Assembly: GCA_021779955.1 (NCBI GenBank)
Contig: JAJXZS010000027.1
Coordinates: forward strand, 1 to 64,000
Direction of reading: 5' to 3'
Origin: Chloroflexota bacterium
GTDB taxonomy: Bacteria > Chloroflexota > Anaerolineae > Anaerolineales > Anaerolineaceae
Length of the DNA: 64,000 nucleotides
Part shown: one piece after another, positions 8,680 through 15,320 of the stretch
Layout: each line of letters begins with the position of its first letter
Numbering within the stretch: position 1 is the first letter of the stretch
Position numbers and translations under genes: made by a program
The notes under the pieces: generated by a model
The model's database searches: none
The model's input: only the letters and a program-made list of their open reading frames with translations
What the model was told of the DNA's origin: nothing

Positions 8680-11304
8680 TCAGCTTCCAAAGGGCGTGAC
8701 CGCTGAAAGGAACATCTCCTCGCCAATCGAGCGGGTGGTCTCAGGGTTTCCACCCTCAAGCACCACAACGAGTGCAAGAGGCGCTCCCTTCCACTCTGGC
8801 GTTGTTCCAGCGATGAACCAATCGACCGTGTGATCTCCATCGATCATGTGCGATATCGTCTCCCAACCGGGAAACGAGGTGGTTGCCAGGTTTTCCGTTG
8901 CAGCAGGCGCATTGAGCATGTCCGCAGTTTTTAAGGCGGATAAGTCCGGCATGGCAATCCAATCTTTGCTTGGATCTTGATAGGCTGTTACCAAAATGGG
9001 GGAAGGCACGTGCCCATTGTTGGACAGGGCTGAGGCAGCAATCAAGAGTTGCAAAGGCGAAATTCGCCAACTGGATGGGGGAGAGACAAGGGTTGAACTG
9101 GTAAACGGCGCACTGAGCGAGGTTGCCTTTGCGGTTTCGATGGGCAGGTTGGGTTGGGCAAAAAAGCCCAATCGCGAGATCATGCTCATCTGGGTTGCCG
9201 GAGCGATTGCCGAGGCGAGCAGGCGTGTGGCAATTGGGCAACCCGAGATGACCAGGTTTGCCAGGTCTGGCGCAGGGCCGGGCGAAACGGCGCAATCCTG
9301 GAGGTCGACGGCGCTCAGATCGGACGGAACAGGGGGAAGGCCGGTCTGCAGAGCTGTGGCATAGAGAAATGCAGTGACTCCCGTGCCAAGCGGATACTGG
9401 CCCTGGCTCACCCTGTTGAGCAGGGGAGCATTCGTGTCGGCCATCCATGTGGACCAATTTGCCTGGAGATCGTTGGCATTAAAAGTGGGTGCGGTTGCCA
9501 CGACGAGAAGCTCGCCCGACTCGGCGTTCATCAGTGCGATGGCGCCCTTGCGCCCCGCGAGCAATGCATCGGCTTTGCTCTGCAGCATCGAGTCGATGCT
9601 CAGGCGGATATTCAGGCCGGGAGGATACTGCCCGTAAAGAGCATGATCCCACCAGACGATCGTGGGTGAATTCCCCTCCACGCCGCGAAGATATCCGTCC
9701 ATGCTGTACTCGATACCCGTCTGACCGTAATCCGGGTTGCTGTAGCCGACCGTCGCGCTCAGCGATGGCACTTCGATGGTGCGGACGTAATCGCCGGGCG
9801 TCCCTGTCGATTCAGCAAGCACTACATTGTTGCGATCGAGGATTTCACCCCGCAATACGTAAGTATCAGAAATTGCCCTGCGGGGATTGTCGCTTCTGGC
9901 CAGCAGGCTCGATGAGCGGATCAACGACCACCAGCCTGTAAAAAGTGCGATCACAAATAGGCCCGTCAGAAACAGGGAGCCAATGAGTGTATATGGTCTC
10001 AATCTTTCGATTGCGGCAGGCTGATCTTCGGCCTGGTTGCTGATCATCAGAAGCAGCAGAAACGAGAAGAACGAAGTTACAAGCGAAGACCCGCCATAAG
10101 ACACGAAAGGCAGGGTGACTCCTGTCAACGGAAACAGGCGGATATTCCCGCCGATGATCAATCCCGCCTGAACGATGAACGTGGTCGAGATGCCAATCGC
10201 CAGGAAGCGCTGATATTGATTGGGGGCGTGCAAAGCAATCTCGATGCCGCGAATGGTGAGTATAGCCATCACGGCCAGAAGAGCCACTGCTCCAAACAGC
10301 CCCGCTTCTTCAGCGATGGCCGAATAAATGAAATCAGACTGCGCCACCGGTACGACACCCGGACTGCCCAGGCCTAGCCCCCGCCCGAAGAGACCGCCAT
10401 TTGCGACAGCCATTAAAGATTGGACGATCTGATACGACCGGCCCGAGGGGTCGAGCCAGGGATTCAGCCAGGCTTCGATGCGCAAGCGGATGACGTCAAA
10501 GGTGAGATACCCGGCAACGAGTGCCGCAACGATCACGAAAAAGCTGATCAGAAGCACCCTGCGCTTGCCCGAAGCGACATAGACGATCAGGCAGTAAAGG
10601 AGAATGAAGATCGATGCAGTGCCCAAATCGCGTTGGGCGATGAGGATGGCGATCGAGGCGCCTGCGACGACCAGCGTTGGAGCGAGAAGCTGCATGAACC
10701 GGAAATGCGCCGGCATGCTGTCTGCCAGGTAGGCAGCGAGATAGATGATCAACGCCAGTTTCAGCAATTCGGATGGCTGCAGATAAACGCCGAACATTTG
10801 CAGCCACAAGCCCGGACCGTCGCCCGTGCCACCCGGATAGGTGCCGAGGAACAAGGTCAGCACCGTCAGCACCAGAACGCTGGTGAGCCAGACGTACTTA
10901 TATCTGCGTAAAATGGGCAGCAGTCTGGGATAGCGGATGCCAACCAGCAAACCGGCGATACAGAGAACGAACCAGATTGTCTGGCGAAAACCAAGGTCTG
11001 GATTCAACCTGAAGATGGTGACCAATCCCCAACCAGATAACAGCCCAACTATGGGCACCAGGTAAGGATCACGATCGGGGAGAAAACGATTGACCCCGCG
11101 ATAGAGGAGTGAAAAGCCCACCAGCCAGATCAGCCAGGCAACCCACTGCTGCCATCTGACGGTTCCCGTCCATTCATGCAGGCGCACTGCAGGCGCAAAG
11201 GTGAGCACGAGACAGTCGAAGAATAAAAAGGCGGCCGCAAGAGTCAACAGACGGCTTTGCAGTTTGATATGGGGCGAATCTGCGGTCGGAAATATCCAGT
11301 TCAC
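8680..11304 (-). CDS. RodA/FtsW (SEDS) glycosyltransferase fused to a degenerate penicillin-binding transpeptidase domain
   Basis: An 874-residue fusion. Residues 1-420 are a full multi-helix SEDS peptidoglycan polymerase; SDFIYSAIAEE near 323 contains the Asp that is essential in RodA/FtsW, and VSYGGSS follows near 400. After another membrane helix comes a PbpA-like class B PBP module: EILDRNNVVLAES, GYSNPDYGQTGIEYSMD and WRISPLQLLIAASALSNNG align with family landmarks. The catalytic motifs are gone: the expected PPGSTFK is PLGTGVT (about 636-642), no SxN is seen near ISGCPIAT, and KTGT before DWFIAG is missing. So polymerase activity is likely and transpeptidase activity is not. It overlaps the MTA phosphorylase gene by an ATGA. 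Last gene of the FHA operon. Confidence 0.88.
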   Translation of the reverse strand: MNWIFPTADSPHIKLQSRLLTLAAAFLFFDCLVLTFAPAVRLHEWTGTVRWQQWVAWLIWLVGFSLLYRGVNRFLPDRDPYLVPIVGLLSGWGLVTIFRLNPDLGFRQTIWFVLCIAGLLVGIRYPRLLPILRRYKYVWLTSVLVLTVLTLFLGTYPGGTGDGPGLWLQMFGVYLQPSELLKLALIIYLAAYLADSMPAHFRFMQLLAPTLVVAGASIAILIAQRDLGTASIFILLYCLIVYVASGKRRVLLISFFVIVAALVAGYLTFDVIRLRIEAWLNPWLDPSGRSYQIVQSLMAVANGGLFGRGLGLGSPGVVPVAQSDFIYSAIAEEAGLFGAVALLAVMAILTIRGIEIALHAPNQYQRFLAIGISTTFIVQAGLIIGGNIRLFPLTGVTLPFVSYGGSSLVTSFFSFLLLLMISNQAEDQPAAIERLRPYTLIGSLFLTGLFVIALFTGWWSLIRSSSLLARSDNPRRAISDTYVLRGEILDRNNVVLAESTGTPGDYVRTIEVPSLSATVGYSNPDYGQTGIEYSMDGYLRGVEGNSPTIVWWDHALYGQYPPGLNIRLSIDSMLQSKADALLAGRKGAIALMNAESGELLVVATAPTFNANDLQANWSTWMADTNAPLLNRVSQGQYPLGTGVTAFLYATALQTGLPPVPSDLSAVDLQDCAVSPGPAPDLANLVISGCPIATRLLASAIAPATQMSMISRLGFFAQPNLPIETAKATSLSAPFTSSTLVSPPSSWRISPLQLLIAASALSNNGHVPSPILVTAYQDPSKDWIAMPDLSALKTADMLNAPAATENLATTSFPGWETISHMIDGDHTVDWFIAGTTPEWKGAPLALVVVLEGGNPETTRSIGEEMFLSAVTPFGS

Positions 11305-12167
11305 TTGAAGTATTTGTCTACCAGGGGTCCCAGTTTTTTGATCGTCTCAGGCGGAATGGCATCTCGATGGGTGATGAAAGCATTTTCGAGAGCATTCCTG
11401 CAATTGCAGGTTGACTCACCCTGCAGATTCTCGACCACAGATTGAATGGTCCTTTGTGCGATTTCCGTGTTCTTGTTCAAAGTCTTGACCACGATATCGA
11501 CGGTGACATCCTCTTCATGCATGTGCCAGACGTCGTAGTCGGTGACGTGCGCCATCACCGCATAGCACATTTCAGCCTCGCGCGCCAGAAATGCCTCGGG
11601 GGCAGTGGTCATGCCGATTAGCGCAATTCCCCAGGAGCGATAGGTGTTGGACTCGATCTTGGTGGAGAAACGCGGGCCTTCGATGGTGATCATTGCGCCG
11701 CCCATATGCGCCTGGGCGTTCATCATCGAAACCGTCTGAAATAATTGCGTGGAAAGATCCGGGCAGAACGGTTCGCCGGGGCTGATGTGGACGACCATGC
11801 CATCGCCGAAGAAAGAACGCGCTCGGCTGCGGGTATTGTCGAATAGCTGGTCTGGGATCACGATCTCTCCCGGAGCGAAATCTTCGCGCAGTGATCCGCA
11901 CGCGCTTACGCTGATGATCCTGGTAACGCCAAGCGTCTTCAGGGCATAAATATTGGCGCGGTAGGGCACTTCAGTTGGTGAAAGGGTATGCCCAATGCCG
12001 TGCCTGGCAAGAAAAGCCACAGGCCGTCCGGAGAGCATGCCCAGCGCGATTGGCGCGCTCGGCTTGCCAAAGGGGGTATCGGGGTAGATTGTTTCGATGG
12101 TTTCGAGGGCAGGATAATTGTATAAGCCTGAACCGCCAATGACTGCGAGGACGGGGGTCTTATCCAT
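11301..12167 (-). CDS. mtnP: S-methyl-5'-thioadenosine phosphorylase family (purine nucleoside phosphorylase)
   Basis: A 288-residue PNP/MTAP-type enzyme that splits 5'-methylthioadenosine (or another purine nucleoside) with phosphate to give base and sugar-1-phosphate. Seen: the N-terminal AVIGGSGLY, phosphate site RHGIGH, base-binding GSLREDFAPGEIVIPDQ, and the C-terminal IEGPRFSTKIES, GMTTAPEAFLAREAEMCYA and TDYD. The start at 12167 has AGGAG at proper spacing; upstream in-frame residues belong to the FHA gene. It lies between the two FHA genes and the SEDS fusion, a place where Actinobacteria carry a phosphatase gene, so its presence in a cell-wall operon is odd. Confidence 0.92.
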   Translation of the reverse strand: MDKTPVLAVIGGSGLYNYPALETIETIYPDTPFGKPSAPIALGMLSGRPVAFLARHGIGHTLSPTEVPYRANIYALKTLGVTRIISVSACGSLREDFAPGEIVIPDQLFDNTRSRARSFFGDGMVVHISPGEPFCPDLSTQLFQTVSMMNAQAHMGGAMITIEGPRFSTKIESNTYRSWGIALIGMTTAPEAFLAREAEMCYAVMAHVTDYDVWHMHEEDVTVDIVVKTLNKNTEIAQRTIQSVVENLQGESTCNCRNALENAFITHRDAIPPETIKKLGPLVDKYFK

Positions 12168-12180
12168 AAGATTTACTCCT

Positions 12181-12615
12181 TTACTGTTCAAAGGGTTGAA
12201 TTTCAACCAGGATGGGAATTTGACCGATGCGAATCTCGTCCCCATTGATGATGATCGTCGGCGTTTCCACTCTCTCATCGTTCAGGAAAGTGCCGTTGGT
12301 GGATTGCATATCTTCCACCCACCACTGAAGATAGCGGTAGCTGAGCTTTGCGTGCCTGGCAGAGACTGTTTCATCTGCCAGAGGAAAATCCGACGTCGAA
12401 TCTCTTCCGATGACTACCTCGGTTGAGGTGAAAGTCTTGCGGGTGTCTTCGGATCCGCTTGCCAGGCTCAGGCTGATGGGTGGTATCTTTCGGGTTGTCA
12501 CCATTTCGCTCTGGAAGCGCAGGTCCCGCCAGAGGGTGTACAAAGCCCAGCCCAGGAATCCGAAAAGGGCAATTGCTGCAAGGATGCGGAGTATGAATAC
12601 GAGGAAGGGTAGCAT
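12181..12615 (-). CDS. Membrane-anchored FHA domain protein (FhaB-like)
   Basis: A 144-residue protein with one N-terminal transmembrane helix (about 5-27) and a cytoplasmic forkhead-associated domain at about 60-140. The phosphothreonine-binding residues are intact: IGRDSTSDFPL, then VSARHA, then STNGTFLNDE. The layout is that of actinobacterial FhaB, which sits beside rodA-pbpA and binds phosphorylated cell-wall proteins. No Ser/Thr kinase gene lies in this window, so the phosphorylated partner must be encoded elsewhere. Follows the FhaA-like gene by 6 bases. Confidence 0.9.
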   Translation of the reverse strand: MLPFLVFILRILAAIALFGFLGWALYTLWRDLRFQSEMVTTRKIPPISLSLASGSEDTRKTFTSTEVVIGRDSTSDFPLADETVSARHAKLSYRYLQWWVEDMQSTNGTFLNDERVETPTIIINGDEIRIGQIPILVEIQPFEQ

Positions 12616-12621
12616 GCGATC

Positions 12622-13407
12622 TTATCCCTGGTCGTTCGAAATCTTCATGTCTGTTGTATGTTGCCTTGGACGCGTGTTGTCGCCCGGCTCGTCGATGGTA
12701 AATATCAATTTGACTCCTGCCAGCGAGATCACATCCCCAGATCTCAGGCGATATTGCGAAATCCTCTCGCCGTTGATAAAGGTTCCCCCGCTCGAACCGG
12801 TGTCGAAGATGATAAAACTTCCATTGACGTAGCGGATCTGTGCATGTCCGCGCGAAACCCGCAGGTCGCTGATGACAAGGTGGTTCGTGCTGCGCCTGCC
12901 AATATTGGTGACTCTTTGTTCGATGGGGAAGACAGTCTCATTTTCCAGGATGAGGGCCGCCCTCACCGGAATCCCGGCAGGCGCACGGGCAAGCAGCGCT
13001 TCGGGGCTGATGGGCACAACGTTCGTGATGCCGATCGGTTCGACGGGGTACACAGCTTCGATGGCGATTTCGGAGTAGTTGAAGGCAGGGTTTGGGACAA
13101 GGTTCAGTGTGGGCGGATTTTCGAACTTCAGCCCAAGTTCCTTGGATGTATCGATCAGCGTATGGGCGATGGCGAATTCCCAGTCCGGTTCATCTTTCCA
13201 TTTCACGCATTCCTGCGGAGACATGGAAATACTGAGCCGGTTGGGCAATATCTGCTGGTTGCCATCGAGGGAATTGATAAACGCCTGGAAGGCTTCGACC
13301 AGACGGTGGACCGATATCGCGTGCTCGTCCATCCATGGAAAGACAGCCGCGCTGCTTTCGATGATTTCTTTGATCTTGCTTTCGAGCAGATCCATTGGGT
13401 TCGACAT
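12622..13407 (-). CDS. FhaA-like protein: DUF3662 domain plus FHA domain
   Basis: A 261-residue soluble protein. The N-terminal 115 residues (DLLESKIKEIIES, a long helical stretch, then a WEFAIAHTLIDTSKELGL segment) match the DUF3662 domain of actinobacterial FhaA; the C-terminal 80 residues are a canonical FHA domain (IGRRSTNHLVI, VSRGHAQI, SSGGTFINGE). In mycobacteria FhaA takes part in regulating peptidoglycan synthesis through the MviN-related complex. First gene of the minus-strand operon fhaA-fhaB-mtnP-SEDS/PBP. The ATG has no Shine-Dalgarno sequence and follows a -10 box by 8 bases. Confidence 0.88.
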   Translation of the reverse strand: MSNPMDLLESKIKEIIESSAAVFPWMDEHAISVHRLVEAFQAFINSLDGNQQILPNRLSISMSPQECVKWKDEPDWEFAIAHTLIDTSKELGLKFENPPTLNLVPNPAFNYSEIAIEAVYPVEPIGITNVVPISPEALLARAPAGIPVRAALILENETVFPIEQRVTNIGRRSTNHLVISDLRVSRGHAQIRYVNGSFIIFDTGSSGGTFINGERISQYRLRSGDVISLAGVKLIFTIDEPGDNTRPRQHTTDMKISNDQG

Positions 13408-13464: not shown

Positions 13465-13860
13465 ATGGGGTATCGGGAAATTGAGCATCTATCGGACCGC
13501 GCGATCGTTGTGACCGCGCCTTCGCTTGCCGGGCTTTTTGCCGACGCTGCGGCGGGAATGTACGCCGTCATGGACGTGCTCACCGGAAGTGAAACGGCAA
13601 GCCGTGATCTCGAGATCAAGGGCTTCGATTGGGAGACCCTGCTGGTTGGCTTTCTTTCGGAGTGCCTGAATATCGCCGAACTGGACCGGTTGGCTGTTCA
13701 AAGCATGGAGATTTCGTTCGAGCCCGAGCGCTGCAGAGCGCGCTTGCAACTGGCGCGAATCACAAGCATGCACGAAAACATCAAAGCAGTGACCTACTCG
13801 CAGATGAAGATCGTGCAAAAGGATGGAAATTTCGAGACAATAATCGTATTCGACCTTTAG
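13465..13860 (+). CDS. Archease
   Basis: A 131-residue archease, the small protein that speeds guanylylation and turnover of the RNA ligase RtcB. Family features are present: REIEHLSDRAIVV at the N-terminus with the metal-binding Asp, LFADAAAGMYAVM, and the C-terminal FETIIVFDL ending in the conserved Asp. It is followed after 11 bases by rtcB, the standard operon partner, which makes the call secure. A GGGTGA element precedes the ATG. Confidence 0.95.
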   Translation: MGYREIEHLSDRAIVVTAPSLAGLFADAAAGMYAVMDVLTGSETASRDLEIKGFDWETLLVGFLSECLNIAELDRLAVQSMEISFEPERCRARLQLARITSMHENIKAVTYSQMKIVQKDGNFETIIVFDL

Positions 13861-13871
13861 CGGAGGGGAAA

Positions 13872-15320
13872 ATGGTAGAAAACTCGATCGTCAAACAAAT
13901 CTCTGAGTTTACCTGGGAAATTCCCAGGGGCGCGATGCCCCAGATGCAAGTGCCGGTCAGAATCTTCGCCACCGAAGAGATTATCAAGCATGCATTGACA
14001 GACATCTCGTTCCAGCAGGCTATGAATGTCGCCTGCCTGCCCGGGGTGGAAGAGGCGGTGATGGTGATGCCGGATGTCCACCAGGGCTACGGCTTTCCGA
14101 TCGGGGCCGTGGCCGCCATGCGCTTGAACGACGGTGTGATCTCGCCCGGCGGAATCGGTTACGACATCAATTGTGGAGTCAGGCTGCTTTCCTCGCAGAT
14201 TCCGTTCAAGAATGCAAAAGATAAACTCGAAAAGCTGTCTTACCTGCTCGATGCGGCTGCGCCCAGCGGAGTTGGCGCGACGAGTTCGTTCAATCTCAAA
14301 CGGGATGATCTCGAGAAGATTTGCTCACAAGGGGTGGCCTGGGCGCGCGGGGCGGGCTATGCCACCGAAAACGACCTCAGACGCATCGAGGAGCACGGAT
14401 CGCTCGCAGGCGGCTCGTTGAGCGCGGTCAGCAGCAGGGCCATCGAGCGGGGGATGCATCAACTGGGCACGCTCGGGTCGGGCAACCATTTCCTTGAGGT
14501 CGATGTCGTCGATGAAATCTTTTTTCCCGAGGCCGCTGCAGCATACGGCCTTTTCGAGGGATGCCTCGTGGTGCAGATTCACTGCGGCTCGCGCGGGTTC
14601 GGGCATCAGATCTGCACGGATTATGTGCAGGAGTTTCAGAACTCGGTCCGCCGCTACGGCATCGAGGTGATGGACCGCGAACTCGTCTGTGCTCCGCTGG
14701 ATTCGAAAGATGCCAACGAATATTTGCAGGCCATGCGCGCGGCTGCCAATTATGCTTTTGTCAACCGCCAGATCCTGGCGAACGGCGTCAGGCAGGCTTT
14801 CGAGCAATGCTTTTCTGGCAGCGAGCGAGGCTATTTACAACAGGTTTATGATGTGGCGCACAATATCGGCAAAATGGAGACTCACATCGTGCACGGCATC
14901 AAGAAGAAGTTGTGCGTCCACCGCAAGGGTGCAACGCGAGCCTTTGGCCCCGGGCACCCCGATCTGCCTGAGGAGTACAGTTCTGTGGGCCAACCTGTGC
15001 TTATCCCGGGGAGCATGGGCACGGCATCATGGGTGCTTGCGGGTACGCAAAAGAGCATGGAAGTCTCATTCGGATCGGCATGTCACGGCGCCGGGCGGCT
15101 GAAGAGCCGTGCGCAGGCCAAAAGATCGGTCCGCGGAGATCAATTGGTTCACGATCTGGCCAAACAGGGGATCATCGTGCGTGCCGGTTCGCTGAGCGGC
15201 GTGGCCGAAGAGGCGCCAAACGCCTATAAGGATGTCGACGAGGTCATCGAAGCGGTTACCGGCGTTGGAATTGCTCGCAAGGTGGCCAGGCTCAAGCCTG
15301 TGGTTGTGGTGAAGGGCTAG
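13872..15320 (+). CDS. rtcB: RNA-splicing ligase RtcB
   Basis: A 482-residue RNA ligase joining 2',3'-cyclic phosphate (or 3'-phosphate) and 5'-OH ends using GTP and Mn2+. Visible sites: GGIGYDINCG (metal-binding Asp and Cys, about residue 93), HCGSRGFGH, HNIGKMETH (about 329) and HRKGATRAFG (about 349), the last in the region of the His that receives GMP. The start at 13872 has GGAGGGG and gives the normal family length; the open frame upstream only overlaps archease. Roles reported for the family are tRNA or rRNA repair; no intron-bearing tRNA is visible here. Confidence 0.97.
   Translation: MVENSIVKQISEFTWEIPRGAMPQMQVPVRIFATEEIIKHALTDISFQQAMNVACLPGVEEAVMVMPDVHQGYGFPIGAVAAMRLNDGVISPGGIGYDINCGVRLLSSQIPFKNAKDKLEKLSYLLDAAAPSGVGATSSFNLKRDDLEKICSQGVAWARGAGYATENDLRRIEEHGSLAGGSLSAVSSRAIERGMHQLGTLGSGNHFLEVDVVDEIFFPEAAAAYGLFEGCLVVQIHCGSRGFGHQICTDYVQEFQNSVRRYGIEVMDRELVCAPLDSKDANEYLQAMRAAANYAFVNRQILANGVRQAFEQCFSGSERGYLQQVYDVAHNIGKMETHIVHGIKKKLCVHRKGATRAFGPGHPDLPEEYSSVGQPVLIPGSMGTASWVLAGTQKSMEVSFGSACHGAGRLKSRAQAKRSVRGDQLVHDLAKQGIIVRAGSLSGVAEEAPNAYKDVDEVIEAVTGVGIARKVARLKPVVVVKG

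Follow-up and report, generated by a model that had tools for sequence, protein, structure and literature searches.

A single open reading frame in an Anaerolineaceae genome of the phylum Chloroflexota joins a SEDS polymerase of the RodA/FtsW type to a class B PBP (bPBP) that has lost all three of its transpeptidase (TP) motifs. The gene lies on the minus strand at positions 8680 to 11304 of the window, by which we mean the whole 64,000-nucleotide stretch of DNA that was analysed; it runs from a GTG start at 11304 to a stop that ends at 8680, encodes 874 aa and has homologues in other genomes. Judging from its sequence, the protein is probably an accessory polymerase that carries its own regulator, a bPBP no longer able to crosslink. 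As for its history, we lean slightly towards a natural uncoupled SEDS synthase, whose bPBP would have lost crosslinking once, been kept as a regulatory subunit and later been fused to the polymerase repeatedly.

The polymerase half (residues 1-425; 10030 to 11304, minus strand) carries an N-terminal extension ahead of the Pfam core, which begins at residue 106, and from there to residue 425 it matches FTSW_RODA_SPOVE (PF01098) with 233 bits against a cut-off of 26.4; its PDB matches are RodA (8tj3_B) and FtsW (25hr_A). In E. coli RodA the catalytic residue is Asp262 (PMC10449877), and alignment to 8tj3_B gives Asp324 (10333 to 10335, minus strand) as its counterpart in the fusion, ruling out Asp285 as the catalytic Asp. 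All 140 SEDS sequences compared have Asp in the Asp324 column, and Arg275, Glu179, Gly307 and Pro392 are likewise invariant among them. This agrees with the original prediction of a complete RodA/FtsW-type polymerase, and with its active site intact the polymerase half looks active.

The remainder of the protein has the features of a PbpA-type class B PBP, with dimerisation domain and transpeptidase fold both present and SxxK, SxN and KTG all gone. It begins with a transmembrane (TM) helix (residues 436-462; 9919 to 9999, minus strand), helical in the AlphaFold2 model, which by analogy with characterized complexes is expected to correspond to interface I (cf. PMC10449877, PMC10257715). The pedestal that follows (the PBP_dimer_2 region, residues 466-560; 9625 to 9909, minus strand) was placed by Pfam and conservation and is the best-conserved section of the PBP half, the Pfam match to PBP_dimer_2 (PF21922, the PbpA dimerisation domain) covering residues 485-563 with 33 bits. 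The pseudo-transpeptidase domain (residues 561-871; 8692 to 9624, minus strand) was assigned from Pfam, the AlphaFold2 model and Foldseek, its match to Transpeptidase (PF00905) being weak (residues 587-781, 36 bits). In the alignment, PLGTGVT (residues 638-644; 9373 to 9393) replaces PxGSTFK at the SxxK site, GCP (residues 688-690; 9235 to 9243) stands at the SxN site and WET (residues 814-816; 8857 to 8865) at the KTG site, all on the minus strand; in the last of these the strand reads GWETIS, with Trp814 in the Lys column. An intact set of SxxK, SxN and KTG was sought elsewhere in the PBP domain and none was found. The AlphaFold2 model of the fusion has a mean pLDDT of 91.4 and a pTM of 0.86, and Foldseek relates the PBP half to the PbpA-type enzymes 4mnr, 4r1g and M. 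tuberculosis PbpA (3un7); the PbpA-like fold and the loss of all three motifs, both foreseen when the sequence was first read, are borne out, and the fusion is predicted to be negative for covalent beta-lactam binding. That the domain is still catalytic through non-canonical residues strikes us as highly improbable. A conserved Cys689 does lie close to the SxN site, and Ser is still found at the SxxK position of a few homologues, but the Lys residues of SxxK and KTG survive in isolated cases only, and some lineages have lost Cys689 itself by deletion.

The loss of the motifs is shared by the relatives. Fused genes account for 79 of the 80 loci from named genomes, and none of these 79 fused relatives has an intact SxxK, while every order-level homologue sampled lacks an intact SxxK and KTG; a comparison of homologues, one of the checks originally proposed, therefore found the motif loss conserved. 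Because the pattern is common to the order-level homologues and the 79 fused relatives, sequencing error and chance are excluded. A strain mutation, a frameshift or an assembly error is ruled out as well, given that all close relatives share the loss. Across the phylum, 113 typed loci fall into 33 with a complete set of catalytic residues (S, K, S, N, K) and 80 that retain no more than one of these five. The dead PBPs have kept the landmarks of the fold, but their catalytic Ser and Lys columns have drifted, and 95% of order-level homologues share a newly acquired Trp814 in the Lys column of KTG. Most genomes of the same genus and family (Anaerolineaceae) carry the fusion, and dead fusions are also encoded by two strains in culture, Levilinea saccharolytica and Pelolinea submarina. 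Active, intact pairs are encoded by split genes, both outside the class and in certain lineages within it, and many lineages have a dead PBP in a gene of its own.

Some observations on individual genomes may be added. The Levilinea saccharolytica genome G035 has two copies of the fusion on contig C4 (L027/L201), with equal scores and in opposite orientation, probably an assembly duplication. No full-length match to the fusion was found in five genomes of the same family or order (G017, G020, G027, G031 and G050), which suggests whole-locus loss in some lineages; as these relatives are without the SEDS-PBP locus, its function is dispensable in some lineages. One of them, the single-contig genome G031 of the same family, has a fusion of another kind, FtsW-MurG (L069:5797-8091), whose 765 aa include FTSW_RODA_SPOVE and both Glyco_transf_28 domains.

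The original prediction had suggested that a gene fusion might have been followed by the loss of catalysis, and it is this order that had to be reversed. On a tree computed from 140 SEDS domains, with the PBP columns left out, the dead state requires 3 changes and fusion 7, and the reconstruction gives the main dead clade a split ancestor. A more careful tree and an AU test were made on a 36-row set; the tree unites the dead proteins in one clade (support 96/94), and the test rejects monophyly of the fused ones (p-AU 2.3e-42). Since the dead clade is thus supported, the fused clade is rejected and separate dead PBP genes exist, the loss of catalysis is older than most of the fusions, and a fusion-first pathway is ruled out by the SEDS tree and the AU test. 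On these sequence comparisons, the dead form goes back mainly to a single deep origin, and fusion arose several times, mostly within the already dead clade; some fissions may have taken place alongside repeated fusion. A fusion from another class (L150) has a fully intact transpeptidase, and dead PBPs also occur separately, so that fusion was neither the cause nor the precondition of the loss. Two further losses are separate and later, one in another class (L149) and one in L122, whose sister L106 is intact. The latter two loci come from near sister genomes (G065 and G127); L122 keeps KTG, with SxxK altered and the SxN region deleted, and its loss is recent and independent.

By the Nei-Gojobori method, the dead PBP domains have a dN/dS of about 0.09-0.24 in pairs with usable dS, several dS values being high, a range comparable to the 0.05-0.26 of the active domains, and the dead domain is therefore read as being under purifying selection. 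What differs is the distribution of conservation within the protein. In active PBPs the mean pairwise identity of pedestal and TP domain is 0.39 and 0.45, the TP domain being the higher in 494 of 561 pairs; the dead order-level PBPs have 0.47 and 0.35 (TP higher in 20 of 1035 pairs) and the other dead PBPs 0.43 and 0.33 (53 of 903), these pair counts being descriptive only, because the pairs are not independent. In these alignments the dead PBPs conserve the pedestal, which is expected to face the polymerase and has Arg470, Asn473, Arg475 and Arg485-Gly486 among its conserved residues, better than what used to be the catalytic domain; in active relatives it is the other way round. A functionless remnant, carried along by its fusion to a needed polymerase, is disfavoured, and we give it very little weight. 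The TP half is indeed less conserved than in active relatives, L122 is a recent loss with a shortened PBP, and in L125 the dead PBP is split over two ORFs; against this, separate dead PBP genes stay open across many lineages, dN/dS is well below 1, the fold is confidently predicted, and the pedestal is conserved at least as well as in active relatives. A conserved TM-pedestal unit combined with a relaxed catalytic domain would fit a regulatory subunit retained without crosslinking. Three points run counter to this regulator reading. The locus is dispensable in some lineages, the conservation of the pedestal could reflect another binding partner, and the TP domain, still conserved at about 35% identity, has gained the conserved Trp814 and, in most members, a Cys671/Cys689 pair, new residues for which a simple spacer would have no use.

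The gene order around the fusion points to its ancestry and to a possible input. The stop of a phosphorylase gene (MTAP/PNP family by Pfam; 11301 to 12167, minus strand), likely starting at the ATG at 12167 after AGGAGT, overlaps the start of the fusion by 4 bases (GTGA), and this gene adjoins homologues of the fusion too. Upstream of it, on the same strand, are two genes for FHA-domain proteins, one fhaB-like (12181 to 12615, by Pfam, and syntenic in homologous loci) and one fhaA-like (12622 to 13407; FHA 68.7 bits, FhaA_N 12 bits), the syntenic fhaA orthologue of L152 scoring 103.9 bits for FhaA_N. The order in L152, fhaA, fhaB, phosphorylase, SEDS and intact PBP, is that of the window except for the fusion, and split pairs with an active PBP outside the class have the same order, fhaA-fhaB-MTAP-SEDS-PBP; the FHA genes and the phosphorylase gene each flank homologues in about 50 loci. 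The fusion is probably cotranscribed with the phosphorylase gene and the two FHA genes; promoter and terminator scans stayed at chance level. Divergent from the FHA genes, on the plus strand at 13465-15320, are an archease gene and then one for an RtcB RNA ligase. No Ser/Thr kinase matched at the fusion locus; in the genome as a whole, three kinase-family matches exceed the cut-off, and they lie only on contigs C2, C13 and C32. The mycobacterial fhaA-fhaB-phosphatase-rodA-pbpA-pknA/B operon, which carries kinases and a phosphatase (PMC11898655), likewise has two FHA genes upstream, in keeping with the kinship to actinobacterial rodA-pbpA that had been proposed from the fused order.

These neighbours, together with the new conserved residues, could also be read as marks of a sensor, in which the remodelled region of the former active site would bind a putative ligand, be it lipid II, a protein or a fragment of peptidoglycan, and the dead domain would turn the polymerase on or off, perhaps in concert with the FHA proteins. 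Trp814 (95%), Trp829 (100%), Gly833-Thr834 (91%) and, in most members, Cys671/Cys689 are conserved even as the positions of Ser and Lys vary, selection on the domain is purifying, and FHA synteny is accompanied by the three kinase-family matches. We nevertheless hold a sensor to be unlikely, as the pedestal is more conserved than the TP domain and large deletions affect the SxN region of some dead lineages.

The genome has other enzymes with which the fusion could share the work. Contig C28 carries an mreB-mreC-...-PBP2-RodA cluster and contig C44 a dcw cluster with ftsI...ftsW-murG, and since the mre-RodA-PBP2 and dcw-FtsW-FtsI pairs exist separately, the fusion is a third SEDS protein. Contig C32 encodes a MecA_N-type PBP of 751 aa and contig C31 an intact class A PBP; the intact bPBPs on C28, C32 and C44 and this class A PBP could supply crosslinks. 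A degenerate class A PBP of 957 aa on contig C29 (L074:4867-7740) is the second pseudo-PBP of the genome, its transglycosylase match starting only from profile position 69 and its transpeptidase motifs altered (SLLSPV, no SxN, KIG). With active partners available, the fusion might be a scaffold whose pseudo-PBP recruits an active transpeptidase, the 751-aa MecA_N-type PBP or the class A PBP being candidates, to the product of the SEDS half, much as PBP3 backs an inactive PBP2B (PMC12713402). This we regard as quite unlikely: the precedent and the active bPBPs and class A PBP of the genome speak for it, but genomes with active and with dead versions have similar numbers of transpeptidase genes (4-9 matches).

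Returning to the accessory polymerase with a built-in regulator, it can be hypothesized that the fusion is the Anaerolineaceae version of an actinobacterial-type RodA-PbpA pair, converted to a polymerase-only machine. The SEDS half would polymerise lipid II. The attached PbpA half would have given up crosslinking for a permanent allosteric role: through its TM helix and pedestal it would activate and gate the SEDS half, while what was once the catalytic domain would form a lid or docking surface. Crosslinks for the new glycan would come in trans from the other enzymes of the cell, and the neighbouring FHA proteins might give input. That the dead PBP might activate or regulate its polymerase had already been put forward in the original prediction, and this role is still the best guess. 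By the current view, SEDS-bPBP complexes link the polymerisation of glycan to its crosslinking and so avoid futile cycles; here evolution would have removed one half of this coupling and kept the rest, and a partner that ordinarily crosslinks seems to have been left with only a structural or regulatory task within the polymerase. If true, this would be, as far as we are aware, the first case in nature of a pseudo-bPBP reserved for a SEDS polymerase. It would offer a natural separation-of-function protein for asking what bPBPs do besides crosslinking, with a comparative panel of active split, dead split, dead fused and active fused relatives at hand.

Natural SEDS-PBP fusions, and bPBPs inactivated by laboratory mutation that retain function, are already known; searches of the open-access literature turned up no natural bPBP described as both dead and linked to a SEDS protein. 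The SEDS-then-PbpA order, the PBP_dimer_2 pedestal, the two upstream FHA genes and the PbpA-like fold are shared with actinobacterial RodA-PbpA, whereas the fusion itself, the lost TP motifs, the intervening phosphorylase gene and the lack of a kinase match at the locus are not. With RodA-PBP2 of E. coli and T. thermophilus (8tj3, 6pl5) the fusion shares the SEDS catalytic residues and, by analogy, the expected TM and pedestal contacts, although PBP2 is active and separate there. In those complexes the bPBP activates via interface I and inhibits via interface II (PMC10257715), and the TM helix of PBP2 alone stimulates E. coli RodA (PMC10449877). A natural SEDS-PBP fusion in Rhodococcus RHA1, cited in PMC10449877 (ref. 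18), likewise appears to join SEDS and PBP in one ORF, but fusions of this type are presented there as encoding both GT and TP, with no dead partner mentioned in that account, while here the TP is dead. The closest functional parallel lies in catalytically dead B. subtilis PBP2B, which still supports division while PBP3 supplies transpeptidation, and in C. difficile SpoVD S311A (reviewed in PMC12713402), where, as proposed here, the bPBP is needed apart from its catalysis. Those two, however, are laboratory point mutants, whereas the inactivity described here is natural and inherited across a clade.
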